Shown here in pieces: positions 34,958-64,000 of a stretch of DNA of 64,000 nucleotides (its first letter is position 1; each line of letters begins with the position of its first letter). The translations under genes and the position numbers were made by a program. Under the pieces are notes generated by a model. The model made no database searches, was not told where the DNA came from, and saw nothing but the letters and a program-made list of their open reading frames with translations. Origin of the DNA: Tetraselmis striata (taxonomy: Eukaryota > Chlorophyta > Chlorodendrophyceae > Chlorodendrales > Chlorodendraceae); assembly GCA_006384855.1 (NCBI GenBank), contig VCJN01003611.1:124001-188000 (forward strand). The letters run 5' to 3'.

Positions 34958-36073
34958 TGGATGAGTGATGCGCACACGGTTCAGAGTCCGGGCCACGCGA
35001 GCACGTGTGTGTGTAGGTGATCCTCGGACGTGCTGTGCAGCTTCAGCAACGGGATGGGAGACGAATCTGCGCCGTCTGATGAGGCAGCGAGCACGCTCTC
35101 GAGCGGCCACCAAGCTCAGGACCCCGAGGAAATCTCTTGCGAGCAAGGCCTCCTGGTGAGCCCGGGTGATGCACCGAGTGCCCCGCGATGAGAGGGCACC
35201 CCGGTCCGCAGCCAAGCATGCGATACCACGCACTGTGCGGTGCACCCCCTTGCTCACCTCACCCACTGTGCCGAAGACCATGCCCGTGTACTCCGACATA
35301 TCCAGGATGTCTCGAAGAGGACCTTTCTGTCCGGGCTCTGTGTTGTGCCACGCCGCGTCCCGCGCAGCCAACCCCCGATGTATGTCGCCCAACAGGGAGC
35401 GCTCAAACCGATCCACAGCTGTGGCCCGGGGCACTGAAGTGTACTTGACCCCGTACCGCATAGTCTTGAACTCTAGCAGCGTGGACTTCAAGCTCCGGGG
35501 ATCATAGCTCCCGGTCACGACGTTGAACGCCGGAAGGGAGAGCTCTGCGTCCGGCACTAGGTCCTTGAGTTCATCCCGGGGTACGGTGTTGCCGAGAGGC
35601 ACTGCCTGCTGGAACAAGTCATCCACCTCCCGCCGTACCACGATACCTAGGTCGTGAACACAGTGATCGCGGAAGGCATCTGCGATAGCGTCGTGCTGTA
35701 CACGCCAGTGAGCGTCTCCAAGCGCCGGGAGGTTCATGAGCGCGTCGCCGTATAGATCAACAATGACGGGGTTGTGCTCCGTCGAGGGCAGAATAATCTG
35801 GCACCCAACCACCGGGGCCAAGCACGGGCTAGGCAGAAAGAAGTACCCGGCAGCGACCTCCCGCAGCTCATGCGGAGTCATGGTTGTCCGCGCGGTGGGG
35901 ATGGCCACTGTCCACATGCCTGACGCCGCGTCGAGCTGGTTGAACAAGATCCGTTCCCTACATGTGGCAGGGAGAGCGCACACCTCATTTCGAAGCCGAG
36001 AGTTGTTGGCCTGGTCTAGAAATGCCGTCAGCTCCTTTTGCGAGCCCGACGCAGCCTCCACTTCCCGCTCCAT
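34859..36073 (-). pseudogene. LINE polyprotein, C-terminal part with endonuclease-like domain
   Basis: A 404-codon frame continues the reverse transcriptase reading, shifted by one base near 36075. It includes a histidine/aspartate-rich segment (LPALGDAHWRVQHDAIADAF) and then PDAELSLPAF followed by TLLEFKTMRYG. The spacing of Asp and Glu-x-Lys resembles the PD-(D/E)xK catalytic core of restriction-like endonucleases, which some LINEs use to nick target DNA. That assignment is an inference. The end of the frame, past about 35000, is low-complexity and probably beyond the true protein. Confidence 0.6.
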
Positions 36074-38186
36074 CTGGCGTCAGTGCATCTGCGTCGCCGA
36101 GATGGCCAGCAGTAGCCTCTTGGAGGCGGCCCCACGCCTCGCGCATCTCCGCGGCGTAGCTGTCCGACCCATGAGCATCGTTGAGGAAGTGGTCATACTG
36201 GCGGGCGGAAGAATTTGCGTTGAAGCTGCCTCGGCCAAGTACGGACCCGAGCTGTGGGTCGAAGAAACCAGGGGTGGGGGTGTTGGTGCCGGAGTTCCTA
36301 GTCAGGAACCTTGGGAGGATGGCGTTCATGCAGCCGATGAAGGCGGCATCACGAACGGTAGCCATGCGGCGGATGCCGGCTCCCTTCAATCGAGTGGGGA
36401 GGTGAAGCCTGCTGCGCGCCCTGGCCACTGCATCCTCGCTCAAGGTTGCCACCTCCGCTGCCATGGGGTCGGGGTCGTGCAAAAGCTCCGCCAAGAAATC
36501 GGTGACCACCGGATTGGTGTCGGTGCCATACGTGGAGGGATCAAAAGAGACCCCTAGCACCCGTTCGACCGCCGCGAGGATGGTGGCATCCACCGCCTCC
36601 GCAAAGGCCTCCACCTCGGACGGAAGACAATTGCGGAGCCAATACCCCGCCTTGTGTTGCATGCAATGCTTGAGCAGGGCCCATGCGTGGTGATGCAAGG
36701 CGTGGGTGTACCGACGGCTGGGCTTGGCAGACAGAAGCTTGCTCAGGCTAGCGTCCACCTCCTCTCGTAGCTCCTCCGCCTTGCCGCGCATGTACGCCTG
36801 CACATACTCTGGCGATCCGAGCGGCACGTTGAGGACCGCGATGCCGTGATGGCCATCTAGCTCTGGCCACTCGATGTCGGCCGGAGCCTCACGCCGCGCC
36901 GCCTCCATGTCTGCGATGTACGCATGCATCTTGTCGAAGCGCACCTCAAGCCCCACGGACGCCTTGATGGACGTGCGGAAGGCGTGAAGAGCCGGCCAAA
37001 CGTGCTCCGGAAGGCCCACCAAAATTCCATCGTCGGCGTTGAAGCGCGCCGCCCCGTCATTGACCTCCAACGTGGTATCACACTGCTGCACCTCGGGGTG
37101 AATCGCGACGCAAAAGGAAGTCGTGGCCAAAGGTGCGCCCTGTTGCACGCCGTCCTCCGACCGCAGAGGGGCGGACCGGTCGTCCACGACCAGATACGAG
37201 TCCGTGGAGAGGGAGGCTAGGAGCGCAGGGATGACAGGGTGTAGTGGAGAGCAATCGATGTTGCGCTGGATGATGGTGCGGCGCCATGCTTCGTTGTAAG
37301 CGTTGCGAAGGTCTGTGTGGACGATGACGGCACGTGGCCCAAGCTTCTCGGCGATGAGCCGGACGCCGTGGATGAGCACAGAGTCGCCCGCGGGAATGCC
37401 AACGCCGAGCTGAGATGGAGCGAGCACCGACACGTATGCCTCCTTCATGTTGTCAACCACTGCCCGCTCCGCTGCGCGCCGCTCCGCCTCCCCGACTGCC
37501 ACAGGCCGCACGTCCGGGGCCCTCCCCTCGCCTAGCTTCTTGACAGGTGCCACGAGCCTAGCAGAGGCGACGAGCCGGTTGAACCACCCGGGCAGGCGAC
37601 CTTGGAGGTACATGGAGGCAACCTCCGACATGGCGCGGACTGCCGCGGGCCCGGACGCCGGGGCGTATTCGCCCACCAAGCAGCGGAGATACTCGTTGCG
37701 CATGCCTGAGGGCCCCGCCGCCACGTGCTGCTTGAGTTGCTGGTACGGCACGCGCATGTCCACCGTCAGGGCGGCCTCGTCCACCGGAATGTCATACGCG
37801 GCGTCTGGGATCGGGTGGCTACGGGACGGGTGCTTGTCGCGCAGCTGGGCGAGGATAGCAGGATCGGACAAGTCGCCCATACCCTTAGAAGATAGTCGGC
37901 CCGCCGCTCGGGAGAGCTCTCCGTCCTCCACCAACGCCACAACGGTGTCCGCGGTGCCCACGAGCAGCGCCGCAAAGAGATCGGCGTCCGTCCGACGCTG
38001 GCGGGCATGTCCGGCGTAGAACGCCTCAGTGCGCGCGTCGTCCCATGAGCGCACGAGTTCGGTCATGCGCCTCTCCGCGAAAGCGCGGAAGCGCCACGCC
38101 AAGGCTTGTAGCCGCCGCCGTCCGCCTCGGCTCGGGGCCCTAAGCAACAATTGCGGCAGCAGGTACTTCCACTTAAGCGCCCTATC
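35985..38186 (-). pseudogene. LINE reverse transcriptase
   Basis: A continuous frame of over 700 codons, after a TAG at 38189-38187, carries ordered reverse-transcriptase motifs. These are AAGPSGMRNEYLRCL, the arginine-proline box VRPVAVGEAERR, IVHTDLRNAYNEAW (first catalytic Asp), DGVQQGAPLATTSF (template-grip QG box) and FNADDGILVG (the YxDD-equivalent catalytic pair). The family prints target-primed DNA copies of its own RNA. The frame ends at 35987-35985 where the shifted C-terminal frame takes over, so this copy cannot make a full-length protein. Confidence 0.85.
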
Positions 38187-43280: not shown

Positions 43281-43372
43281 AATTGATGGTACAGAAATCC
43301 GCGTTGAAATAATAGAACGCCGCCCCAAATGTAGTTCGATTTCCGATCATTTATGTTTTCCGATCATTTCCG

Positions 43373-45737
43373 ATGTCGCGAGCCAAGGAAACGGTGGTGA
43401 AGCAACTCCGTGCCGAGGCGATCGCAGCGGAGGCCAAATATACAGCCAAGCTCGCTAAGGTCATCACGCAGCGCGACTCGGCGAAAGCCGCCACGCGGCG
43501 GGCTAAAGCAAAGCTCGAGGCAAGCCAATCGGGTTCGGCAAGGGCTCGGTCGTGTGTTATGAAAGCCATGAGGGAGCGGAAGTTGCGCCGGGCTTTCGGA
43601 ACCTTGCGCCAAGACTTGAAGCGGATCTCAGCCCCACCAGTGAGCGAGGCCGAGGCGTATCGCGGCTTCAAACGCCGCGAGGTCAAGAGGCTAACCGACT
43701 ATCTTGAGGCGCGCTACGAGGGGGGCGTGAAAGGGGACACAGTTGTGCAACTCGTCGATTGTTTCTGTAATGAGTGTCCCGAAATTCTTGATGCCGTTTG
43801 CCAGCAGCGCGGGTTGTATAGCACTGCGGAGCAGCATGTCGTCGCCGCGATCCGCGAGCACTGGACCGTGGCGCGCGCGTCGTACATCCGTGTAACCTCC
43901 AAGCTCACGTGGCGCCGCTACCAATACCTCATCCATGCCTTGTCTAAGCGTTGGGTCGAGGATAAGGGCGAGCATGAGGTGTTGTTGCTGCCCTATGGCA
44001 CACCAATGTGTCTGTTGCCAAGCAAGAACGAGGTGTGCGACTGGGAGGACCGAGTGGCGAAGCTAGCCGGGCTTGAAATTTCCGAGGACGGCAAGCGAGC
44101 CATCATCGACGTGATGCAGGCGTTGCGCACTCGGCTGGCCCAGTTCCCGAAAGATCAGTTGCCCGAGAGCAGAGAGATCGTGATCCAGTTTTGCGGTGAG
44201 CTGCCATCGTCAGTGTTACGAATGATGTGAATTGTTTTCATAATATGACATGCCATCACTGATGAAATTGTTTGTGCCTACAGCTGATGGCAGTACAGCC
44301 TTCAAGCTCGGCCATCAAGGGGCTGTGCTTGCCATCTTAAAGCCATTGCTGAGAAAGGTGGACGAAGAAGGTTATGTGATGGAAGGATGGGGTGTGGACA
44401 GCATTCATAATGCTGTGAAGATCATGCTGTACGAGGGGCAAGACAAGTACGAGCAGTTCATCACACAGATGGAGGCTATCAAGGATCAACTCATGGAGCT
44501 CTGCGACGGTTCAGGGATGAAGCTGCATGACGAGATCTACACCTTCAAGATGGTGCTGGGAGGCGACATGGCGTGGCAATCGGGGATCTACGGGCATGCT
44601 GGAGCAGCTTCTACATTTTTCTGCTTCGTGTGTGACATGCCTAAGCACTACATGCACCTCACGCAGAGTGACTACGAGCGGAAGGGCATGAGCATGCCGA
44701 TGATCAAGAGCGCGCAGTATGCAGCCATGCTAGCGCATGCAATGGGACAGGAGTACGGACTGACGGAGCCCTACCCGTGCCCAGGATGCGGTGAGACTGT
44801 GCACTTCCATGGTGACTTACCCCCCGCCGACACTCCGGCGGCGAGGCAGAATTATCAGCATGCCCACTTCGGCCAGCGCCACATGTGCCCACCTGGCTTC
44901 ATGATGATAGAGCCGGAGGACATGATCGGTGACACCATGCACGCGGGCATCCAAATCTGCCCGCATGTGGTGTGGCATACTGTCCACAAGCGGTGCAAGA
45001 CCAAGGAGGAAGCGGAAGCTATAATGGATGCCATGCAGCTTATCGGACTTCCGGGGCGGGATGTGAAGGTGAAGACTGGAAAGGGTAAGGCAATCACCAA
45101 GGCCGACCTACCTGCGTTGAGTGGTCCGGAGGTGAAGAAGATGGTGGATGGCCATGAGGTGGTGCTCGACGCCATCATCTCCCGCTCCGATCCCATCAGG
45201 CCCAATTTGAAGAAGGTGTGGGACTGCTACATTGCCATGACAACAGCATGGAAGGTGGACCCAGGTGATGACCTTGAGGCCCGCAGGCGGGCACCACGGG
45301 CACTGCGGGACGCCGTGGAGCTCTTCTTTGCCGCCTTCCTAGACATTGCCACAGCAGAGGACATCACGCCGTACATGCACCACGTGGCATGGCACTTTCC
45401 GATGTGGATGGAGCGGCACGACTGTATCGACCACTACAGCGCACAATGCATGGAGCACAGCAATCGGAAGATCAAGCATGGCTTCCGTCAAGGGAGCAAC
45501 CATCAGCCGCAGCGCATGTTGAGGAGTGGCAAGATGACGCTATCCAGGACAGGCCAAGTGCTAAAGCGCAGCACGCTAATGGCCCATCACCGAGACATGC
45601 ATGGCCCCCCTAAGCGTTCCCAACCCCACATGCCAAAGGAGAAGGCGGACAAGGTGAAGAAGGAGATGGCTGCAAAGGCATCCAAGCGCAAGAGCGTGAT
45701 GGCAGAGCGGGCCGACAAACACAAGAAGCAGAAGTAA
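43373..45737 (+). CDS. Transposase-like protein of unassigned superfamily, 2 exons, 758 aa
   Basis: Exons 43373-44195 and 44284-45737. The 88-nt intron has a GTGAGC donor and CTACAG acceptor, and removing it restores one frame through VIQFCADGSTAFKLGHQGAV. The N-terminal half is a lysine/arginine-rich helical region that may bind DNA. The C-terminal half has KMVLGGDMAWQSGIYGHAGA next to FFCFVCD (CxxC) and a second YPCPGCG (CxxC), then HHVAWHFPMWMERHDCIDHY and QCMEHSNRKIKHGF. An acidic residue before a GxxG and CxxC, and a late H...E-H block, are features of large RNase-H-fold transposases. I cannot name the superfamily or prove all three catalytic acids. The basic C-terminus (KKEMAAKASKRKSVMA) suggests nuclear location. 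Codon use is even and the frame intact, so this is the best-preserved gene in the transposon half. Confidence 0.6.
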
Positions 45738-52017: not shown

Positions 52018-52839
52018 ACTGCGGGAGCCGACGAAGGAGCGAAGAACTGGCGACCGAGGCGGACGAGAACGAGTACAAGCCAAGCGAAGTACGAGTATGA
52101 GCATTGCGAGTGCGAGTACACGTGAAGGCGAAGTACTGGTACGAGGACGACGAGGCGACAGTACGCGCGACTATAAGGCGACTAGTAGTGCATGACAGTA
52201 TTACGAGTACCCACATGGGGTTCGAGTAACGTGTATGTACCTGCGTACTAGCAGCGGCGATTGTCGTACGCTATGGTGTCACCTGCTAGAGGATGATAAT
52301 ACCAAGCGTTAGATGGAGCGCTGCCTTGGAGTATTAGTAGTAGGTGCTCGAACCTACTAAAACCACCTAGAACGCTATATCGGATATGCGAGTGCCTTTT
52401 CGTGTGTGGATAGCGATAGAATATTACCACTAATTCCCCTCCCTCGTTGGGTTGAGCGGAGGAAAAGGAGGACCGCGTCCGAAATCGCCTGGAATACGAG
52501 AGAATACGAGAGAATACGAGAGAATCGATACCGGTTGCAATACGGTTTTATGACGGATTTTTAGGCGTCCTCCGTCCGTCCGTCCGTCCTCCGTCATACG
52601 CGCTTCGTGTATGAACCGTCATACGTTCGGTGTTCGCTCGTTTGATTTCACGGTACAGGTACGAGTACATTTCATTTCTGAATGGACGCGCGTGTATCCT
52701 AGCCCAAGCACGTCATATATCCGTCCGATACGCCAAAATAACGCGGTACCGCAGCGCATTTTTAATGCTGAATCAGCAAGCGAGACGTGCCCGCCTCTTT
52801 TATTCTTACAACGACTATACGTGGTCCAAGTATAGTCGG
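52018..52839. other. Spacer with simple repeats
   Basis: Contains three to four tandem AGAATACGAG-type units at about 52492-52525 and CCGT tetramers at about 52566-52590. No supported gene. Confidence 0.5.
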
Positions 52840-53262
52840 TTGCTGTCGATACCACCATTGCCCCCATCCTCGGCGTGTCAAGCTCGGATCCAACGAATGC
52901 TTTGCGGGCTGTAGAGCGCCACAAAATCCATAAGTATGACGAGGGTGTCCGAAACGCCGCCGGCATGCTTCGCTTTGTTCCTTTCGCCGTTTCCGAGTCT
53001 GGCTCGCTGGCCCCGCATGCTGAGGCCTTCTTGGTGGAGCTCGAGAAAGCTAGCCACACACACACTGGCCAAAAAATCGGCCAGCTCTTGTCTGCGTGGC
53101 GCCGCCGTTTCTCCTTGCTCATCAACATGGCACATGCAGACAACGTTCTTGGCGGGGTCGCGGCCGCGCGTGCGGCACGTGATGGTGCTCCTGCGCCTGC
53201 GACGCGTCGCTCGTCGGCGTGTATTGCTATGACCCGGGTCATTGGCTGCAAGCGTCCTCGCG
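52840..53262 (+). pseudogene. LINE reverse transcriptase fragment, inverted relative of 8113-8550
   Basis: The frame reads GVSSSDPTNALRAVERHKIH, KYDEGVRNAAGMLRFVPFAV and then GQKIGQLLSAWRRRFSLL, the C-terminal segment seen at 8113-8550 on the other strand. Similarity starts at TTGCTGTCGATACCACC and ends near GGCTGCAAGCGT. It is truncated at its 5' side and ends 134 bp before the Copia LTR. Confidence 0.65.
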
Positions 53263-53395
53263 CGTGGTTTTTAGTGCTGATTCAGCGAGACGTGCCCTGT
53301 AGTACAAACAAATGAAAGCAACGTGCAACCGAATCAACAAAGTACCGGTACGGTGTACCTGCCTCATGTCACTCACATACTGTACACAGCCCCGA

Positions 53396-53864
53396 TGTTG
53401 ACGAACACTGGTCGCATCATGTGATCAACTGGTCCACTGAAGTGTAAGTGAGCACATCTGGCTTATAGGCAAATAAGCCTGATGATACTATATTCGTAAT
53501 AGTGCAGTATAAATTACGGCTACTGCAGAAATGATGGAATGTAGTGGTACTATCAAGTGACATACACTGGACCTGCAGAGCAAGACTGGTGTGAGGCATG
53601 TGAAGACATGCCTCATATAACACTTGATCAAACAAACCCAGATTTCTGACAGGTGTCCGACTGAACGGGAATAGCCTTTTAGATATTGGAACCAGATCAA
53701 GAAGCATGAGAAATGGACAGATGAGCAGATGGAGCATGCCCCTAGCAAGGGCATTCTGCAGATGAGAATATAATGGGACATTTCTCATCATTTGTAATTA
53801 CAATATTCTGATCCCACAGACTCTGTCCCAACATACAGCAAGATAGGAATTCTCCGAAACTCTA
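53396..53864 (+). repeat. 5' LTR of the Copia element
   Basis: Starts TGTTGACGAACACTGGTCGC. CAACA at 53829-53833 pairs with the TGTTG start, but similarity with the 3' LTR continues to 53864. The 5' copy has four extra bases (TACA) near 53834. Confidence 0.85.
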
Positions 53865-54231
53865 CAGATTATGGCTAGCTACAAGACTCAAAGCTTCCCC
53901 TGCTTCTAGCTCTGCTATTCAGTTCTTCGTGCCTGTGTGCCTGGAGGTGTGTGCTCGCTTACTTCGTGCCAGCAGCTTCGCTGCTGAGGAGAGGAGGATG
54001 TGTGCCTCTATCAAACGTTTTCTGCTCACCTGTCAAACCTTTGGCCAGCTCTCTCTCGGCAAAACTCGACCTTTCCCTACCTGAGAAGCGACCCAGCTCC
54101 GAACTCTTCTGCCCTTTTCTCAGCCCCACTCAGCTCCACTCTCTGATTGTGGCTGTGACAACCGATCGTCTCAACTTTGGCAAAGCTCCCCCTGTCAGTC
54201 TCTCCGAATGTGTACCTGATTCCCTTGCATC

Positions 54232-55750
54232 ATGTCTCTCCCTGCCAAACTCAGGCACAAGGAGGCCAAGTACCTGGAATTTCAGGAGGCCAATGATGCT
54301 CGCCTCCTAGTGATCTGGTGCATCTCTGTGAAGCGCCACATCCGCGGTGTTCATGGGTACCGCAATATCTTCAGCGCTAATGACACCAATGTTGATGACG
54401 CGCATCTCAATGAAGCTGTCAACTTTATGGCCTCAATACTGCTAGATAATCAAGCCAAGGGCATCGTGCTCAAGGCCGCTGATCGCGCCAGTGAGACACC
54501 AGGCGGACGCGCGGCACTCAAGACCTTGGAGGAACTCCGCGCTTCATACCTTCCAGATGAACGTATCCTTCTCGCTCAACTAAAAGCGTCACTGAATCAT
54601 GGGCAGAGTACTCATGAAAATCTCCTTGACTTCATGACCCGGCTGGAGGACCTGCAGATTGCCATCAAGGAATGTGGTGCGACTGTCTCGGATGACGACA
54701 TGCTCGTATCCCTGCTCAATGGCATGCACACTGAGGAGGCCACTATCCGAGCAGTGGTAAAGGGGGACCCCACTGTCACCACCTTCGAGCTGGCCAAGGC
54801 AAAGATCAGGACTGTCCAAGACCACATCATCAGTATGAAGCAACATGGCGCTGCCTTTGCTGCCTTTGCGCCAACTAGGGGGGACTTCTTTCGCTGCCCT
54901 CCAAGCCCGCGTGACTGAGCTGGAAGCTGAGAAGAAGAAGAATGAGGCTGCAAGTCCGAGGTAGACGAACTGAAGGCTATGGTAGCTGCAATGCAATCCC
55001 AGCACAACGCTGGAGGCGGCGGCAGTACACCGCGCTTCAATCCGTAGAACCGCCGCTACTACAACTGCAACGCCATCGGACATTTGGCCCGTAACTGCCC
55101 CAAGCCCGGCAAGAGGAAGACAGCAGGAGAAGGCCGCCCAAGGCTTGCACTTGGTTCAGAGGAGCCGCCCGCCAAGGAGCTTGGAGCACTGTCGTTCCAC
55201 ATGGCGCTACTTGCCAGCGCCACACCTGAGCTCCCACCCATGCCGACTGACGCTTGGTCCGTGATGCCTACCAGCCGTCGCACCATGATCAGGGCAGCGC
55301 CGCCACCCCCGCTCAGCTCCCACAACCCGTTCGGTTCCCTCACCTTCTCCGATGACACCGCCGACCCAAACGATGAGCCTACCCTTCTGGAGGAGCGCGA
55401 AATGCGAGACGCCATCGCCGCTGTGTCAGTTGAAGAGCAAGCTATCGCTGCCGCCGTGGCGGCAGTCGCGGAGGAGGAAGCTGCGGAGCGTGCCGCCATT
55501 GCTGGCGTTGCAGCCTTCATCGCAGCCGACCCTGTGGCCATGACTGTTGCCCGCACAAGCAAGGCGATCATCCTGCCCAACGACGTTGCCATGCGCCGAG
55601 CTATCATCACAAATGACCCCACCCCATGGCATGTTGACTGGCTGCACTCGGCTGCCCACCGCTCGGGTAAGGCACCAGTCCCGATGCCAACTGTGACGCA
55701 CGTCGTACCGGCTTCTCGCTTCAACGCGTCGACCAGCAGTGGCATGTGAT
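54232..55750 (+). pseudogene. Copia gag with altered zinc knuckle
   Basis: The frame 54232-54918 starts MSLPAKLRHKEAKYLEFQEA. It has the UBN2-like capsid pattern (LLAQLKASLNHGQSTHENLL, LQIAIKECGATVSDDDMLVS, LLNGM). A one-base shift near 54885 moves to QARVTELEAEKKKNEA, a second stop follows near 54960, and a third frame (55048-55750) continues with the nucleocapsid part YYNCNAIGHLARNCP. The CCHC knuckle keeps the last three ligands (C, H, C), but Tyr stands where the first Cys belongs. The rest is alanine/glutamate-rich. Not translatable as one protein. Confidence 0.75.
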
Positions 55751-55884
55751 CTGACTGCAGCCGCCTGAGCGGTCATGATCTCGGGTACGACAGCGCCGAT
55801 GATGAAGAAGCCATGCTGGTGGATTTCCAGCGTCACTGAACGCCAGCTGCACTTGCAGCATGTGGCTTCCCTCCCGTTGATTAT

Positions 55885-56376
55885 ATGACATTGTCACCCG
55901 TATCTAACGACACTGGCTGCGAGAACAACAGCGTTCCTAGGCTTATTAGCGACGACAGTATCAGTGACAACGACTTCTACCAGCACGCAAGCCCAGTCTC
56001 GCTGTGTGGCGTACCCACTACTCAGCCGCACATGACTGACAGCGTCTTCCCCGACTCTGACAACATGCCGCACCTGACCTCAGACAGCACTCATGATGAC
56101 AAGGCCGTCTCGATCAGTCGCCGCTCCTCCTCGCTGGTCGCACGCCGCAATCCCAGCACCCGTGCATTAAAACTTCACCGCCACGCCATTCGTGCCGCTG
56201 CCCGCACCTTCAAAGCGTGGCCCAATGCCAGCCTCCCTGGGATTTCCCCAACTACGCATGCTGTCATATCTGGACGATGCCATGGACTCCTTTCGCCTCG
56301 TGCCCCGCGATGCCGTGTCCATTTAAAATCCATCGACGCAGCATGTTGCTGCTCACGAGGGCGTCTCATCCAGTAA
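55885..56376 (+). pseudogene. Unassigned Copia segment between gag and methyltransferase
   Basis: An open frame of 163 codons, rich in Ser, Asp and His (LISDDSISDNDFYQHASPVS), with a basic end. No domain recognised. It sits where the gag-pol junction would be. Confidence 0.3.
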
Positions 56377-56589
56377 CGCCAGGCTCTCCATGACCAAGAG
56401 CGCACGTCGTCATCGCAATCGCCGCTCAGCTCGTCGCCTTCGGAAGCGCGACCCCTTTGCCATCGGCGGCACCAAGCACCTTGCAGCCACCACCCCAGTT
56501 GTCATCCCCTCTTCCCTCCCAACGCTATCGACCAACTGGAGACTGCTCCGGCGGCCGCTGAACAACATTGTTTCCTGGGAGAGGCAGCG

Positions 56590-57590
56590 CCACTGCCGTC
56601 CATCCGCCACGTTCTTGCCGACCCTGCAGCACTGGTGCCCCACCATCCACTCCATGTTGTCATCCTCTGCGCAGGAACCACATTTGGCGTCATTACCGAA
56701 CTATGTGCAGCCGGACACTGCATTGCTACCATCACACTCGTGGAGAATGGCGCCGCAATGCGTGCTACCGGGATCCTAGAGCTCAACAGAATCCGTGCAA
56801 AATGGACTGCGCTCATCTCATCTGATGCGATCGCCAATGCCTACGATCGCCTCCCCACTCATGACGTCCAGGTCCTCACCACAGACACGTTTGCCGCACT
56901 TCCGCGTGTGGACCTTCTCGTGGCAACACCTCCATGTCAGCCGTTCTCATCAGCTGGGAGGAATCAAGGCATGCATGACCAGCGAGCCAAGCCCTTCTAT
57001 GCCGTCTGCCGTCTCGTCAAGCAGCTCAACCGCGCACATAGCGGTATTACATACGTCATCGAGAATGTCGCTGGAGCCGGGCGTTTCCCCGCCATTCGCG
57101 CGGCCCTAGGGACCTTGTCCTGGCCCGCGCACACGACCTCGGATCATCATCCCGCCGCGACACCCTACTTTGGACCAACGCGCGCAGCCCGGACGCCATG
57201 CAGACCCACTACCATCGTTCGCTCTGTCACCCGACCAGCGTGGGCGATTTGATTGCCAAGGGTGGGTTCGCACCGGAGTGGCAGGCTCCCGCCCACCTGC
57301 GTCACAGCAAGTTTGGCAAGTTTGTGTCCCGCAAAGGCAGTTTCGCGCATCGGATGCATGGGTCCACCCCGGGCAGCAGTATGTTGCTACACAATGGCGT
57401 GTATGAGGAGGCACCCACCGACATCAAATGCATTTCTACGGGCTTCGATGCCAACACCGTCGACTTCCCCGAGGTGTCCGCCGATCTGCGTCGACGTATC
57501 ATTGGAGCGTGTGTGGACTCCAACGTGGCGCGCTGGCTGATGGCGGCCATCTCCTCCGCGTCCAAGGACGAGAGCGCTCTTCCTAGCATT
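56590..57590 (+). pseudogene. Cytosine-5 DNA methyltransferase domain inside the Copia pol
   Basis: The frame from about 56590 carries HVVILCAGTTFGVITEL in the place of motif I (SAM binding), DLLVATPPCQPFSSAGRNQG with catalytic motif IV PCQ (Cys codon 56935-56937), and YVIENVAGAGRF with motif VI ENV (57061-57069). A one-base shift at about 57105-57115 leads to the frame LVLARAHDLGSSSRRDTLLW, which continues as a motif VIII and target-recognition-like region to about 57590. That second frame then runs unbroken into the protease. The enzyme class methylates C5 of cytosine in DNA. The short form resembles the DNMT3 group more than long maintenance enzymes, by eye only. The copy is inactive because of the shift. 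Confidence 0.75.
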
Positions 57591-58870
57591 TACACCTTCC
57601 CCCACAAATGGATCTTCGACTCTGGCGCTACCTCACACATGGTTTCGCAGTACGAGGACTACTCCGACTATCAGACCATACCGCGCCGATGGATCAGCGG
57701 CTTGGGCGCCTACGCTATGGGTACCGGTACAGTCCATATCAGCATGCGAGCCGTCAACGGCGATACATCCTGCAGCACCCTTCACAACGTTCTTCATGTG
57801 CATGATCTCGCTTCCCGCCCCAATAACGAGGTGCTTCGTCTCTTCAGTGCGCGGCAGGCGCAGGATGCCAATGCGGCTCTACAAATAGTCATGACAGCGC
57901 GCAACAACGCCATGCAGATCTCCGATGCCGTAACGATTCCCATCGAGAATGACGGGCGCTTATTTATCCTGCACAGTCACGTGCTCCGTCAGGGACGACG
58001 TCGACGTCATGGTAGTCCGGTGGAAGCTGCCACAGCCCTCCCCGCAACAACCTCCAGCGCATTACCATCACACAAAATGTTGTGGCATGCGCGCCTCGGT
58101 CACATCCACGAGCGCGCCATGCACCGAGTTACCAATGGGGGACCCAATGCCGACCTGCGTCATACCAGCCTTCCGTTCTGCAAGTCATGCGCAATCGTGA
58201 AATCCGCTGTGGCCCCGATGCCGCGCATTTGTCATAAGAAACCAACTGTGCCATTCTCTCTCGTTGGGAGCGACTTCTGGGAGCTGCGCACTCCTTCGCT
58301 GCAAGGCCACACGTACTGCTGTGGGTACGTCGACTACGCGACATCCTTGGTGTGCTTGTTCTTCTGCAATTCCCGACAATGTGCTACCGCTACTCTGCGT
58401 TCATTCACCACCATGGTGGTCAGCTACGGCCATTCGATCGCAGCATTGCGTCTGGACAACGATACAACCTTCCGCGGTCAAGCATATGTGTCTGCCTGCG
58501 ACGCCCTAACCATTCGCCGCACATATGCAGCACCATACAGCCAGTTCCAGAATGGGCTGATGGAGCGCACATGGCGCATCCTCAGCCAATGGACTCGTTG
58601 TATGCTGGACTACGCCAGCCTCCAACACACCTACTTGGAGTTCGCTATGTCCGTCGCAGCCTACATCTATAATCGCACCTTCCGCCGTGGAGTTCGTGGA
58701 ATTCCACTTCACCTCGTGATTGGCGCCATCCTAGACTTGCGCCATCTCCGTGTGTTTGGCTGTGATGCCTATGCGCACGTTCCCCGCAGTACCCGGCACA
58801 AAGCTGCCCCTTCCGCCCGCCAAGGTGTCTTCGTTGGATACTCCACAGACTCGCTCGCCGGCATGGCTTG
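57591..58870 (+). pseudogene. Copia protease and integrase
   Basis: In one frame: the retropepsin motif WIFDSGATSHMV (Asp at 57618), then the pre-integrase zinc region MLWHARLGHIHERAMH with FCKSCAIVKSA, then the integrase core. The catalytic D,D(35)E triad is visible: VGSDFWE (Asp 58272), LRLDNDTTF (Asp 58455) and NGLMERTWR (Glu 58563), with 60 and 35 residues between them. A frameshift at about 58860 separates the start of the C-terminal end (VYFPATRYVVASRSVTFDE in the +1 frame, up to a TGA at 59035). Confidence 0.85.
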
Positions 58871-59043
58871 TTTACTTTCCCGCCACGCGCTATGTTGTGG
58901 CCAGTCGATCCGTCACCTTCGATGAAACTGATCGCTCAACGCCCTGCACCCTGGAACACCCCGATCCATGGCCGTCTGCAGCCCCTCGGGAGGGGATGAC
59001 TAAAGAGTCAGGAGGGGCCACAACCGCCAAGACATGAGGGGCT

Positions 59044-61053
59044 GTGCCCCGAGCAGTATGTCCTACCTGCTCGTCATCAACTCACTCCATGGAACTCCCA
59101 CCAGCATGGAAGCCCACTCGCGCCTGCAACATGACAATGCGATCCGATGTCAGCGAATCCGACAGCTGCAGCGACAGCGACAGCGACAGCAACCCTATCG
59201 AGCACCACCGTGTACGCACTCCGCCCCCGCCTCAGCCGCCAGCAGCGCCACCAGCAGAAGGACCAACACCTCAGCCACCTACCCCAGCTATACCTCCCAG
59301 CACCCGCCCGCAGCCCCCAGCTCAGACAACCGCACCCCCCGACTCCGCTGCAAACCTCAACCGGCCGCAGCGCAGCAGACATGCCCCCGGCGTATACGAT
59401 CCCACCGATGGCAGCACCGTACCACGAGGGGTCACCTACGCAGCTGTGGTTCAAGAAGACTTCATCCGCAACATCGACCCGTGTGAATGGGTACTACTGG
59501 CGGGCGAAGCACCTGGCGACCCGCTGACCTACACGGAGGCCATGAACTCGTCTCTGGCTGCCTGGTGGCTGGAGGCAATGCACCATGAGTACAACTCGCT
59601 GGACTCAAGGCGCACGTGGGAGCTGGTGGTCCTGCCCGGTGGACGCAAGGCTGTCAAGTCCAAGTGGTTGTACAAGACCAAGCACAACTCGGATGGCACA
59701 ACTGCAAGATAAAAGGCTCGCGTGGTAGCTAAGGGGTTCTCACATGTCGAGGTCATCGACTACACCGACACCTTCGCACCCACCGTGAAGTTCACAACCC
59801 TGCGAGTCATTTTTCCCATTGCCGCCCACCATCGACTTCACATCGAACAGACCGATGTGGACTGCGCGTTCCTGTACGCGGATCTGAGCGAGGAGATATA
59901 CATGGAGCAGCCCCGCGGCTTTGAGCAGTATGGACCTAATGGCGAGAAGCTGGTGTGCAGACTAAGGAAGGCCGTTTACGGTCTAAAGCAAGCACCCCAC
60001 AACTGGCACAAGCTACTCAATGACTACATGACATCACAACACTGTCGACAACCGCGAACCGACCCTGGCGCCTACGTCTTCCGGAGCAGTGATGGCGGCA
60101 TTATGGGCATTATCGCAATCTACGTGGACGACATCATCATTGTCAGCAACTCGCGCCCGTGGATCGCCCACTTCAAGCAGGCACTCGGACAACGCTTTGA
60201 CATCAAAGAGTTGGGCACCTGCTCATGGCTTTTGGGCATGAAGGTGGAGCATAACCTGACAGCCGTCGTGATCAAGATTCATCAGTCCAAGTACATCCAT
60301 GACATACTGGAGCGCTTCGGTATGAGCGACTGCACCCCCGCACATGTCCCAAGTAATGGCAACGACCCGAGGGCGTCAACCGCACTGGATGACAGCGCCA
60401 CCACCACATACCGGAGCCTCGTTGGAGCACTGCTGTACGCAGCAGTTGCAACACGTCCTGACATCGCGGAGGCCGTCTGCCGCCTATGCCGATTCATGAC
60501 ATCAGCAACTCAGACACACATGGAAGATGCACGACACTGCCTCCGGTACCTGAAAGGAACTCATGACCGGGGACTGACTTTCGGAGGAGAATGCGAGTTT
60601 CGTCTTCATGGTTACAGCAATGCTAACTTCCCAACAATGTATCCCAGTCAGTGCAATTCGACCAGCGGTTATGTATTCTTTAATGCAGGAGCAACCGTCA
60701 GCTACCTATCCAAGCTTCAGCCATTGGTAGCACTCTCGACAACAGAGGCAGAATATATAGCGCTTTGTGGCATAGCCCAGGAGGCAATGTTCTTGAGGCA
60801 GATGCTATCAGAACTAGGATTCAGGCAGGACGGCGCAACAGCAATCGGAGAGGACAACCAGGCTTGTATTACAACAATCGCCACCAACGACGTGACCTCA
60901 GCCCCGACCAAGCACATGGACATCCGACTTCACTTCGTGCGAGATGCACAACGCTCTAAGAAAGTCAAGGTGTACTATGTGCCCACTGCTGATATGCTGG
61001 CTGACACCTTCAAACAAAGCCACTTGCGTCCCGCCAGCAGTTTGAGGCCTTGA
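59044..61053 (+). pseudogene. Copia reverse transcriptase and RNase H
   Basis: One frame interrupted only by TAA at 59710-59712. Before it: RTWELVVLPGGRKAVKSKWL. After it: KARVVAKGFSHVEVIDYTDT, IEQTDVDCAFLYADLSEEIY (first catalytic Asp), VYGLKQAPHNWHKLL and YVDDIIIVSNS (catalytic pair at 60121). RNase H follows with YSNANFPTM, STTEAEYIAL and KHMDIRLHFVRD. The first RNase H Asp (normally YSDAD) is Asn here. The TAA sits where related elements have the Tyr of Y-K-A-R-L-V. The N-terminal part, 59200-59400, is a proline-rich linker. Confidence 0.88.
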
Positions 61054-61103
61054 ACTCGCGCATCATGAACTACAATATTGTACCTGCAACCAGTGAGGAG
61101 GGG

Positions 61104-61568
61104 TGTTGACGAACACTGGTCGCAGCAGGTGATCAACTGGTCCACTGAAGTGTAAGTGAGCACATCTGGCTTATAGGCAAATAAGCCTGATGATACTATA
61201 TTCGTAATAGTGCAGTATAAATTACGGCTACTGCAGAAATGATGGAATGTAGTGGTACTATCAAGTGACATACACTGGACCTGCAGAGCAAGACAGGTGC
61301 GAGGCATGTGAAGACATGCCTCATATAACACTTGATCAAACACACCCAGATTTCTGACAGGTGTCCGACTGAGCGTGAATAGCCTTTTAGATATTGGAAC
61401 CAGATCAAGAGGCATGAGAAAAGGACAGATGAGCAAATGGAGCATGCCCCTAACAAGGGCATTCTGCAAATGAGAATATAATGGGACATTTCTCATCATT
61501 TGTAATTACAATATTTTGATCCCACAGACTCTGTCCCAACAGCAAGCTAGGAATTCTCCGAAACTCTA
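61104..61568 (+). repeat. 3' LTR of the Copia element
   Basis: Matches 53396-53864 with about 14 mismatches and one 4-base gap by eye. The polypurine tract GAGGAGGGG is directly upstream (61095-61103). Confidence 0.85.
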
Positions 61569-61773
61569 GACCCGCGTCCGCCGACCCGGGGCCCGGCGTC
61601 CTTCGACGGACGGGCGACGGTCGAACCACGGCGTCCGGCGTCCGGTTCACGCGGCGGGCTTGGCGTTTCGCTCCGTGCCCGCCCCGTAGACCTGACGGCC
61701 GGCCCGACCGGCGGGGCCGCGTGTGGGATGCGGGCCGCTTTTTGGCGGCGTGTAGTGCTGATCTTTTAATACA
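61569..61773. other. Short GC-rich spacer
   Basis: No gene or repeat recognised between the Copia LTR and the tandem duplication. Confidence 0.4.
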
Positions 61774-63304
61774 TTAAACTACTTCCATGAGCTGGCAGGT
61801 AGGCACTGGGCAGAGGGAGGCACAGCCAGTTTTGCCAAAGGACAAGTGTCGGTGAATTACATCGGCGCCGAGGCACGGCAAGACAACCAGGATGGGAGTG
61901 GAGGGTGGGTGTTGCGCAACCAACAGCAAAAGGGATGGACTGTGTCGAGTCCGTGTCCCGCCCAAATAGCCAGTGCTATCGAAGGGTCTAGAGCAGCTGC
62001 CACCAACCCTCCGGTGCCGGGAATGCCGGCGGCCGATGTACGAATCGGCGCAGGAAGATTCCGGAAATTTCCGGAGCATCGTGGCGCCGATTGCACACGG
62101 CCGACTAGGGTTGGCACCGCTATAGGATTGGGGCATCACTCGGTTGTCGTTTTCTAACCTCAGTTGATACTTAACAACGATTAAACTACTTCCATGAGCA
62201 GGTAGGCACTGGGCAGAGGGAGGCACAGCCAGTTTTGCCATGGAAGCCGAAGGCCACAGCGGCCTGACGGCGCGCGCTTCCCACGTGCCCGCTAGGCCGG
62301 TGTTTGAGAACAAGACAACGCACCGACGGATGCCCGGGCCGGCCACACGAGCGGCAGCTGTCTCCACGCTCCCTGTCCATCGCTTGTGCGCAAGCTGCGG
62401 ACGCTCCACTTGCCGAACAACGAGCACGGCTCGCGCGACGCATCGGAAGCGCCGCAGAGCCGATCGTGCAGGCGAACGCGGGACGCCAGGCTAACGCAAG
62501 GACCGCAGTGTCGCGACGACACGCGCAAGAAGATGCGATTCGGCCCCCTCTCCAACGTCTCCACCACGAGGCGCTCGAGTAGCGCTCCAGTGACGCGTCG
62601 CGCGCGATAAGGTGGCCAGTAATTTCAGAAGAAAGCTCCGGCGGCGCCACACGTCGGAAGCCGTAGTAAGAAACCGGCAGATCAGCGCACGACGCGCCGG
62701 GATGTCAGCAGGGTAACAACTCGGGTGTCGTCTCGCGCAAGGGTGACGGACTCCCGCCACGCCGAAGGCAAGCGGAGGTCGGAGGGATCCGGGCTGCAAG
62801 CACCATGGACGGCTGATACCACAGAGGTGTCGGACGTCACGCTGGCGGGCGAGCAACGCGGGGCCGGCGCGCGATGGGAAAAGCGCCAGCGTGCCACGCC
62901 ATACGGGCCGGCGCGGCTGGCACGCCCGCTCTGCGCGATTGGGCGGCCCATGAACAACCTAGCAGCGGAACGCCATCGCTGCGGAGGTTTAACGTGAACC
63001 GATGATGCCGAGCACACGGTCCCTCACGGCGCAAAGCACCGTGCGATTGTCTGTTGCGCAAGCAACAACAAAAGGGATGGACTGCGCCGAGTCCGTGTCC
63101 CGCCTAAATAGCCAGTGCTATCGAAGGGTCTAGAGGTGCTGTCACCAACCCTCCGGTGCCGGGGATGCCGGCGGCCGATGTACGAATCGGCGCAGGAAGA
63201 TTCCGAAAATTTCCGGAGCATCGTGGCGCCGATTGCACACGGCTGACTACGGCTGGCACCGCTATAGGATTGGGGCATCACTCGGTTGTCGTTTTCTAAC
63301 CTCA
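61774..63304. repeat. Tandem duplication A-B-A'-C-B' of a repeat element
   Basis: Block A (61774-61837) recurs as A' (62181-62240). Block B (61912-62162) recurs as B' (63054-63304), over 90% alike. The first unit has only about 75 bp between A and B; the second has about 810 bp (block C). So the first unit is an internally deleted form of the second, or the second carries an insertion. Confidence 0.8.
62186..62650 (-). pseudogene. Gag-like fragment with CCHC zinc knuckle in block C
   Basis: A 154-codon minus-strand frame holds CRSCGRPGHPSVRC at 62356-62315. This is an exact C-x2-C-x4-H-x4-C zinc knuckle, as in retroelement nucleocapsid proteins. The surrounding residues are basic. No reverse transcriptase is near, so this looks like the remains of a non-autonomous or truncated retroelement. 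Confidence 0.45.
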
Positions 63305-64000
63305 CCCCCGTCCTATCCTAACCAAATACCTGTAGCGATCCTGACTAATTTGGTAACCCGTACATTAAAAAGATCGTGGCCGTGGGATCCCTGATGACGT
63401 CAGTACTGGTTAATCGTACGGTCCATATCCCATAGTGATTTGAAAACCAAATCGCTATTTGGTCATCGCGGGTGTTCGGATTGGTGGTCAAATCACGAGG
63501 CTCCAGTAATTCGGACCTCGGCGAGTGACGAGATCACTCGCGTTTCCTATTTGGTCGCGTAACGGTCGGTACGTCAAAGAGGCTGGATGGACGGCGCACA
63601 GGCGCCCATCGTTCATCGCACGGCTCGCAGCTGTCGTGTGTAACGAACTCGCCGCCGCCCACGGGTGGCCCACCTGCGGCCCGCGCCCCACCCGTGGCAC
63701 ACCCACCAGTCCACCACCCGGCCGCCATTACCCGTCTACTGCGTGTTCGGCCGCCTACGTCGAGGCAACCGCCCCAACCCGAAAGTCAGTCAACGTTTCT
63801 CGCCTAGGGGCTATGGCTAGCGTACAGGAAGAGGACAGTCGCTTCGCTCTCATCCCAACCGATGACGACGAGGAACACACGGCGTCATGGCGGGCGGCGA
63901 GCAGTCGGACGCGCCCGCCGTGTGTGCGCCAGTCTGAGCGGCGCCATGGTAGTAGGCGGGTGCCACATATGTAGGCGGCGCAATGCGATATACCGTCAGT
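63305..64000. other. End of window, no supported gene
   Basis: A plus-strand frame at 63525-63974 includes an ATG at 63814 with an acidic start (MASVQEEDSRFALIPTDDDE). It could be the first part of a gene running past 63974, but nothing identifies it. Confidence 0.25.

Follow-up and report, generated by a model that had tools for sequence, protein, structure and literature searches.

A multi-copy group of Copia retrotransposons in Tetraselmis striata carrying a predicted cytosine-5 DNA methyltransferase within the Gag-Pol polyprotein

Here we describe a large group of Ty1/Copia retrotransposons in the chlorophyte alga Tetraselmis striata whose single Gag-Pol polyprotein includes a complete predicted C5-cytosine DNA methyltransferase (DNMT) of about 310 amino acids, located directly before the protease (PR). 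The domain is part of the element, travels with it and is kept by selection, and we propose that it is packaged into the particle and methylates the cDNA of the element; to this reading as a whole we assign a probability of about one half. Retroelements having their own DNA methyltransferase are of general interest, as the silencing mark of the host becomes a tool of the parasite. In the sections of the literature considered here, detailed descriptions concern LINE, DIRS and Gypsy elements, and a many-copy, recently active Copia set adds to them. Moreover, DNMT-bearing and DNMT-less Copia families, as well as one-frame and RT-deleted copies, are present in one genome, which provides a natural comparison of the methylation of insertions in the same cells.

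The window element and its split methyltransferase domain

The window, i.e. the whole stretch of DNA analysed, comprises 64,000 nucleotides (positions 124,001 to 188,000 of contig VCJN01003611.1), and positions 53396-61570 of its + strand constitute a full-length but decayed Ty1/Copia element; the region 56590-58870, to which the preliminary description was devoted, covers only the DNMT, the PR and the integrase (IN). The element is flanked by a target-site duplication, CCCGA on the left (53391-53395) and CCCGC on the right (61571-61575), in which four of the five letters agree. Comparison of the LTR pair delimits a 5' LTR (53396-53866, +) starting with TGTTGACG and a 3' LTR (61104-61570, +), which are 96.16% identical (469 columns, 14 mismatches and 1 gap). 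Directly 3' of the 5' LTR lies a probable primer-binding site (53867-53880, +), which is like the stretch found after the 5' LTR in relatives and which, we assume, might base-pair with a Met tRNA on its anticodon side, the arrangement known from classical copia. The polypurine tract AGTGAGGAGGGG (61092-61103, +) is located ahead of the 3' LTR, and AGGAGGGG directly precedes the 3' LTR in all 12 listed elements of type A, the type of the window copy, and of type A'.

The internal region, which is likewise encoded on the + strand, begins with a gag region whose first open stretch (54235-54918) shows about 91-92% identity to the gag of A- and A'-type copies; the Pfam gag match in the window copy is insignificant (E=0.13). 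It is followed by a CCHC zinc knuckle (PF00098; 55060-55104; E=3.8e-5), the DNMT, a protease region with the motif DSGATSHM (Pol_BBD, PF22936; 57609-57815; E=5.9e-10), a GAG-pre-integrase domain (PF13976; 58053-58202; E=1.8e-7), the integrase core (rve, PF00665; 58251-58541; E=6.6e-7), the SH3-like domain of the integrase (PF25597; 58731-58853; E=7.3e-14), a reverse transcriptase (RT) with one stop codon inside (RVT_2, PF07727; 59611-60351; E=1.1e-50 for the part past the stop) and an RNase H (RH) region (60400-61000). The rve match reaches 30 bits, under the curated cut-off of 32.6, and the D,D(35)E spacing reported in the preliminary description is correct when counted by eye. RNase H gave no Pfam match in the window element and was assigned by similarity between copies (92-94% identity in the five one-frame A-type copies). 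The order of the Pfam domains (knuckle, Pol_BBD, GAG-pre-integrase, rve, SH3, RVT_2) is that of Copia elements. The element thus has the features that define Ty1/Copia: the arrangement PR-IN-RT-RH with a Copia-type RT (RVT_2), together with an LTR pair starting with TG, a polypurine tract and a 5-bp duplication. Its decay is evident from stops and frameshifts in the gag region, the DNMT, the interval between IN and RT, and the RT.

Downstream of the element, the window contains a 253-bp direct repeat (61910-62162 and 63052-63304, 95% identical), each copy of which holds a partly self-complementary stretch of 50 bases. An rRNA in the flank (61576-61760) was considered and rejected, as no Rfam family reached its gathering score anywhere within 52500-64000.

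In the window copy the DNMT is divided over two frames. The N-terminal half (motif I, motif IV with PCQ and motif VI with ENV; 56641-57113, frame 0) is supported by homologues and by a PF00145 match of 47.1 bits (cut-off 22; E=3e-12) at 56848-57072, which covers profile positions 44-112 of 324 and sits in a frame-0 open frame, 56377-57249. The frame switches near 57111, and the C-terminal half (motif VIII with SRRD, the TRD and motifs IX-X; 57111-57590) follows in frame 2, where it belongs to a 627-residue open frame with Pol_BBD, rve and SH3. When used as the sole query, this C-terminal half gave no match by profile or BLAST; its recognition depends on relatives, in which a single frame encodes both halves, and on their profile, which can be aligned to DNMT3A before and after the TRD. 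The two halves are 86-94% identical to those of A- and A'-type loci. The preliminary description had read the motifs PCQ, ENV and SRRDTLLWTN as a methyltransferase between gag and protease, with its second half in frame with protease and integrase. All three motifs are present, the profile search that it had named as a check places PF00145 between the zinc knuckle and the PR, and the common frame of the second half with PR and IN has been confirmed.

Copies across the assembly, selection and recent movement

The assembly searched comprises 224.1 Mb in 2903 contigs. A search with the PF00145 profile resulted in 123 scored matches from 337 candidates, most of them partial (approximately profile positions 35-120), like that of the window. 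Around these 123 listed hits, 20 stretches were fetched, picked mostly for long open frames, and in 18 of them the two halves of the DNMT share a single frame with the PR, followed by the IN. The other two contain a DNMT inside another retroelement (L025) and a different methyltransferase with no retroelement DNMT (L028), respectively. An unbroken frame from gag to RT, which the preliminary description had proposed to look for in other copies, exists: gag, DNMT, PR, IN, RT and RH occupy a single open frame in six of the 18 stretches, i.e. in L010, L012, L013 (2299 codons), L014 (2298), L017 (2295) and L026 (2483). The first five of these are of the window type and have 2295-2299 codons. The PF00145 score is 45.8 bits in the intact copy L010 and 18.5 bits, below the cut-off of 22, in family C (L050).

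The number of copies is large. A match to the retroelement DNMT was found in all 20 shorter pieces taken around further hits (L030-L049), being split between frames in five of them (L034, L036, L046, L048 and L049) and partial in some others. The DNMT of L050 as query matched at least 125 stretches of the genome at no fewer than 117 separate loci, after merging of neighbours separated by less than 1500 bases, with at least 24 matches lying in stop-free open frames of 2000 codons or more, and the DNMT of L025 matched at least 44 further places among the matches listed, counted by eye. Some of these places may be alleles, because contigs that are nearly identical, such as C1546 and C2482 with their common pair of profile matches, could represent haplotypes.

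These copies bear directly on whether a host methyltransferase pseudogene could have come to lie beside or inside one element by chance. The window copy taken by itself, with its halves in different frames and its many stops, would fit such a juxtaposition, but the same domain recurs in the same place and frame in the 18 stretches, and matching loci exceed one hundred. The other copies in the same genome rule this explanation out, and the probability that it is true is practically nil; as the preliminary description had argued, the DNMT belongs to the polyprotein and is no chance neighbour. Relatives without the domain combined with insertion scars at the window copy, a pattern that would have spoken for a neighbour, were not seen; families B and C are closer to the window element than is the one DNMT-less Copia family sampled (L051).

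Conservation of the domain was analysed in an alignment of ten DNMTs (Copia families A, B, C and D, and the non-Copia F), in which identity to the first sequence goes down to 29%. Invariant in all ten are C10, G12, the residues of PPC.P.S, ENV, R173, W178, N180, M267-G268, G289 and N295; they include the motif IV catalytic Cys (C99), the Glu of ENV (E141) and the motif VIII Arg (R173). Q100 of PCQ is present in nine, and only family C (L050) has PCA. In four A versus A' pairs, which share history and are not independent, pN/pS of the DNMT was 0.20-0.24 (Fisher p 1.6e-9 to 7.9e-11). Elsewhere in the A versus A' comparisons it was 0.24-0.36 for PR-IN, 0.06-0.18 for gag and 0.62-0.85 for the 513-codon linker before the DNMT (p 0.04-0.58). 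The A versus A' comparison indicates that the DNMT codons are under purifying selection and that the catalytic residues are kept. Between young copies, where changes are few, dN/dS of the DNMT was 0.50 (L010-L013) and 0.56 (L010-L017), and it was 1.11 (3 synonymous and 10 nonsynonymous changes) for the RT-deleted pair L018-L020; judged by these few changes, the DNMT does not look constrained.

A clean LTR pair was obtained in 14 of the 16 stretches run (the exceptions being L019 and L029). The two LTRs are 100% identical in five elements (L011, L012, L013, L018 and L027), 99.8% in L014, L017 and L026, and 98.7-99.6% in L010, L015, L016, L020 and L022, the corresponding value for the window copy being 96.2%. 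The 5-bp target duplication, read by eye, is exact in 12 of the 14 elements and agrees in four of five letters in the other two (L020 and the window copy). The five elements whose LTRs do not differ also have an exact duplication and have therefore moved recently, and the window copy is a decayed member of a large, recently active group.

Part of this movement concerns a derivative without RT. The same 1479-base in-frame deletion, with identical breakpoints, is found in L015, L018 and L020, which occupy different target sites. It takes out the entire RVT_2 region and part of the RH (Pfam run on L015 and L018); in these three fetched copies the gag-DNMT-PR-IN frame stays open. Allowing up to two mismatches, the deletion junction was detected at 12 places in the genome (reversed control, 0) and its undeleted counterpart at 16, the window included. 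According to a comparison of lists, a DNMT match is located 1.3-1.6 kb upstream at nine of the 12 junction places, not all of which have long open frames, and the other three (C832 and two on C1064) are absent from the DNMT match list. Since the LTRs of L018 are identical, the RT-less derivative has moved recently, with RT presumably being supplied by full copies.

Families, type of methyltransferase and capture of the domain

The DNMT is present in five Copia families, A (window, L010), B (L026), C (L050), D (L024) and E (L058). In all five it is located just N-terminal of the PR, in line with the placement at the N-side of pol in the preliminary description, and the aligned DNMT ends approximately 24-34 residues ahead of the protease match. 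L051 is a Copia element with a 1561-codon frame in which gag, PR, IN and RT are present and the DNMT is absent. When no outgroup is included, A+B, C and D+E are set apart in the DNMT tree as in the RT+IN tree; support in the DNMT tree is 93/94 for A+B, 68/99 for D+E+F and 45/11 for D+E, and long branches were flagged in both trees. A distant outgroup joins the C branch of the DNMT tree (60/93), a placement that we do not trust. In the RT+IN tree, L051 joins A-B-C at 100/99, apart from D and E. The simplest reading of these patterns would be one capture of the DNMT at its present position, with a loss in the line of L051.

It is possible, although we consider it doubtful, that the DNMT was captured twice or swapped between elements, in which case its presence in five families would reflect module exchange and not one ancient capture. 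The grouping of the DNMT-less L051 with A-B-C and away from D and E fits such an exchange, as does the outgroup position on the C branch, which departs from the RT+IN tree when D+E are taken to be outermost. So does the divergence between types A and A': dS is 0.18-0.19 in the DNMT and lower in gag (0.05-0.07), the linker (0.06-0.08), PR (0.11-0.12) and IN (0.06-0.13). In the DNMT and linker (aligned to window positions 55929-57512), the divergence between L013 (A) and L018 (A') amounts to 5-8.5% per 200 columns, compared with 0.5-5% elsewhere, and this higher value, synonymous sites included, makes module exchange possible. Finally, a related DNMT resides in a different retroelement: L025 (G000:C2687:15800-25799) is a non-Copia element with RVT_1, a PCIF1_WW match, a DNMT of the same kind (28-35% identical) and RNase_H, in which the open frame reaches up to 3505 codons. 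The PCIF1_WW match lies about 410 bases before the L025-type DNMT at all four places listed (C2687, C653, C2172 and C596). Against module exchange stand the same position and similar spacing to the PR in five families and the separation of A+B, C and D+E in both trees without an outgroup; moreover, a single capture followed by loss in the L051 line accounts for the pattern.

As to the type of the enzyme, DNMT3A was the best PDB match (4.8e-9) to a profile built from the ten sequences; it aligns in three collinear stretches that correspond to motif I, motifs IV-VIII and motifs IX-X, the first and last of which are weak (1.0 and 6.8 bits). The same profile matched bacterial M.HaeIII at 5.3e-9 (core alone), DNMT2 at 6.7e-8 and DNMT1 at 0.23. 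We use "DNMT3-like" as a label for the predicted enzyme, M.HaeIII scoring equally on the core. The profile aligns in motif order with the catalytic domain of DNMT3A/3B (PDB 6w89 and others), but these enzymes have PCN and WGN where the retroelement DNMT has PCQ and WTN. Searches for MBD and DNMT1-RFD domains, run without a positive control, gave no match. By tblastn, 295 records of a phage collection matched the N-terminal half at less than 60% identity (best E about 1e-6) and none matched the C-terminal half at E up to 1; no close donor was thus seen in the phage collection. Scans of IMG/VR for related loci yielded one phage methyltransferase match (42% over 55 residues) and otherwise nothing.

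Taking these observations further, we tentatively propose an ancient Copia clade having a particle-packaged DNMT that would pre-methylate the cDNA. The DNMT would be a module transferable among algal retroelements, as suggested by its occurrence in five Copia families and in the PCIF1-type RVT_1 element, by the possible exchange between subfamilies and by the spread of the RT-less derivative with gag-DNMT-PR-IN open.

Possible roles of the domain and related systems

By analogy with the biology of Copia elements, a DNMT that is part of Gag-Pol would be packaged into the virus-like particle together with RT and IN and would be freed by the element's protease. It could then methylate the newly made double-stranded cDNA, either inside the particle prior to integration or at the integration site. 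The methylated cDNA might be marked as host-like, or the chromatin state of the new insertion might be set. We infer that self-methylation could hide the element from the host.

Methylation of this type may leave a CpG footprint. Between the window copy and L013, transitions were counted at 34 of 1062 CpG (3.2%), 51 of 1149 CHG (4.4%) and 51 of 2433 CHH sites (2.1%), so that the CpG rate is 1.5 times the CHH rate and below that of CHG. The CpG/CHH transition ratio of other pairs was approximately 1.1 to 2.6, and L024-L023 showed too few changes. The observed/expected CpG ratio (o/e) was 0.78-0.97 in stretches with DNMT elements (flanks included) and 0.854 in the stretch of the DNMT-less L051; the window outside the element, at 1.0, is above the DNMT elements, but also above L051. 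The CpG-decay test gives little support to strong, heritable CpG methylation of the DNMT elements.

A weak CpG footprint also fits an absence of DNA methylation, and the DNMT might be real and selected but act on RNA, either the packaged genomic RNA or the tRNA primer, and not on cDNA. We consider this unlikely. It may be supported by the match of the profile to DNMT2 (6.7e-8), which is a tRNA methyltransferase, and by the PCIF1_WW match in the other DNMT-bearing retroelement (L025), PCIF1 being an mRNA cap methyltransferase. In the sections of PMC5890265 considered here, RNA methylation is raised for SymbioLINE-Dnmt; the same sections report that the DNMTs of SymbioDIRS-Dnmt3 methylate CG, which speaks for a DNA substrate. 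A DNA substrate is also favoured by the fact that the match extending to either end of the domain is the one with DNMT3A, which acts on DNA.

A further alternative, which we regard as decidedly improbable, is that the DNMT enters the nucleus with the integrase and acts mainly on host chromatin, near insertions or genome-wide, the benefit or truce being achieved via host methylation and not by self-marking. The presence of DNMT and IN in one polyprotein is compatible with this alternative, and so is the RT-less derivative, which occurs at 12 places and keeps the gag-DNMT-PR-IN frame in the three fetched copies; a host-wide effect has been proposed in Symbiodinium (PMC5890265, in the part considered). 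However, CpG is not depleted around the element, the o/e of the window without the element being 1.0.

For SymbioDIRS-Dnmt3, methylation of cDNA has been argued alongside the reported CG activity (PMC5890265, sections considered). As described there, SymbioDIRS-Dnmt3 and SymbioLINE-Dnmt of Symbiodinium resemble the present element in having many copies and selection on the DNMT, and the DIRS form shares an ORF with RT; they are tyrosine-recombinase DIRS and LINE elements, whereas the present one is Copia, and the Symbiodinium Copia elements are stated to be without any DNMT domain. KnitGypsy-Dnmt3 of Klebsormidium nitens (de Mendoza et al. 2018, PMC5890265) is also an LTR element whose Pol polyprotein contains a DNMT, with its key residues conserved and under purifying selection, but it is a Gypsy element whose repeat structure is described as DIRS-like; it belongs to a different superfamily and presumably reflects a different capture. 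On the descriptions in these sections of PMC5890265, the present element differs in type from all three. According to one sentence in PMC12344493 (Mol Biol Evol 2025), which cites PMC5890265, certain members of DNMT3 lie within LTR Copia elements. The section in question names Copia ("LTR Copia and DIRS") and describes no element, and the LTR case of 2018 that it cites is Gypsy; the sentence may be a slip or refer to an undescribed case. In open-licence literature represented mostly by titles and the first parts of abstracts (including PMC9998398, PMC6338049 and PMC10675990), there was no description of a Copia element with a DNMT.

Other C5-methyltransferases are present in the genome. A second multi-copy family of about 325 residues is represented by L002 and L009, and also by L003-L007, L055 and L057, with three copies on contig C1230. 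In L002 and L009 it adjoins an ORF containing NDDDLCFKYC, a motif that we take to be as in virus- or Polinton-like elements. In L008 (G000:C2385), a 327-residue C5-methyltransferase is located beside an ORF that by eye resembles a Tc1/IS630-type transposase. The genome also has C5-methyltransferase genes apparently split by introns, and the gene on C1546 is, we presume from its motifs, DNMT2-like.

Among other features, the genome gave 63 light-harvesting (PF00504) matches, the best with 184.8 bits, which identifies its bearer as a photosynthetic eukaryote; together with size and G+C, these scores may suggest a green alga. In the window, two consecutive open frames of 304 and 497 residues (43316-45737, +) resemble a transposon-encoded protein and had no convincing Pfam match, and a 733-residue open frame on the opposite strand (35985-38186, -) with a weak RVT_1 match (E=1e-4) probably belongs to a non-LTR retroelement.
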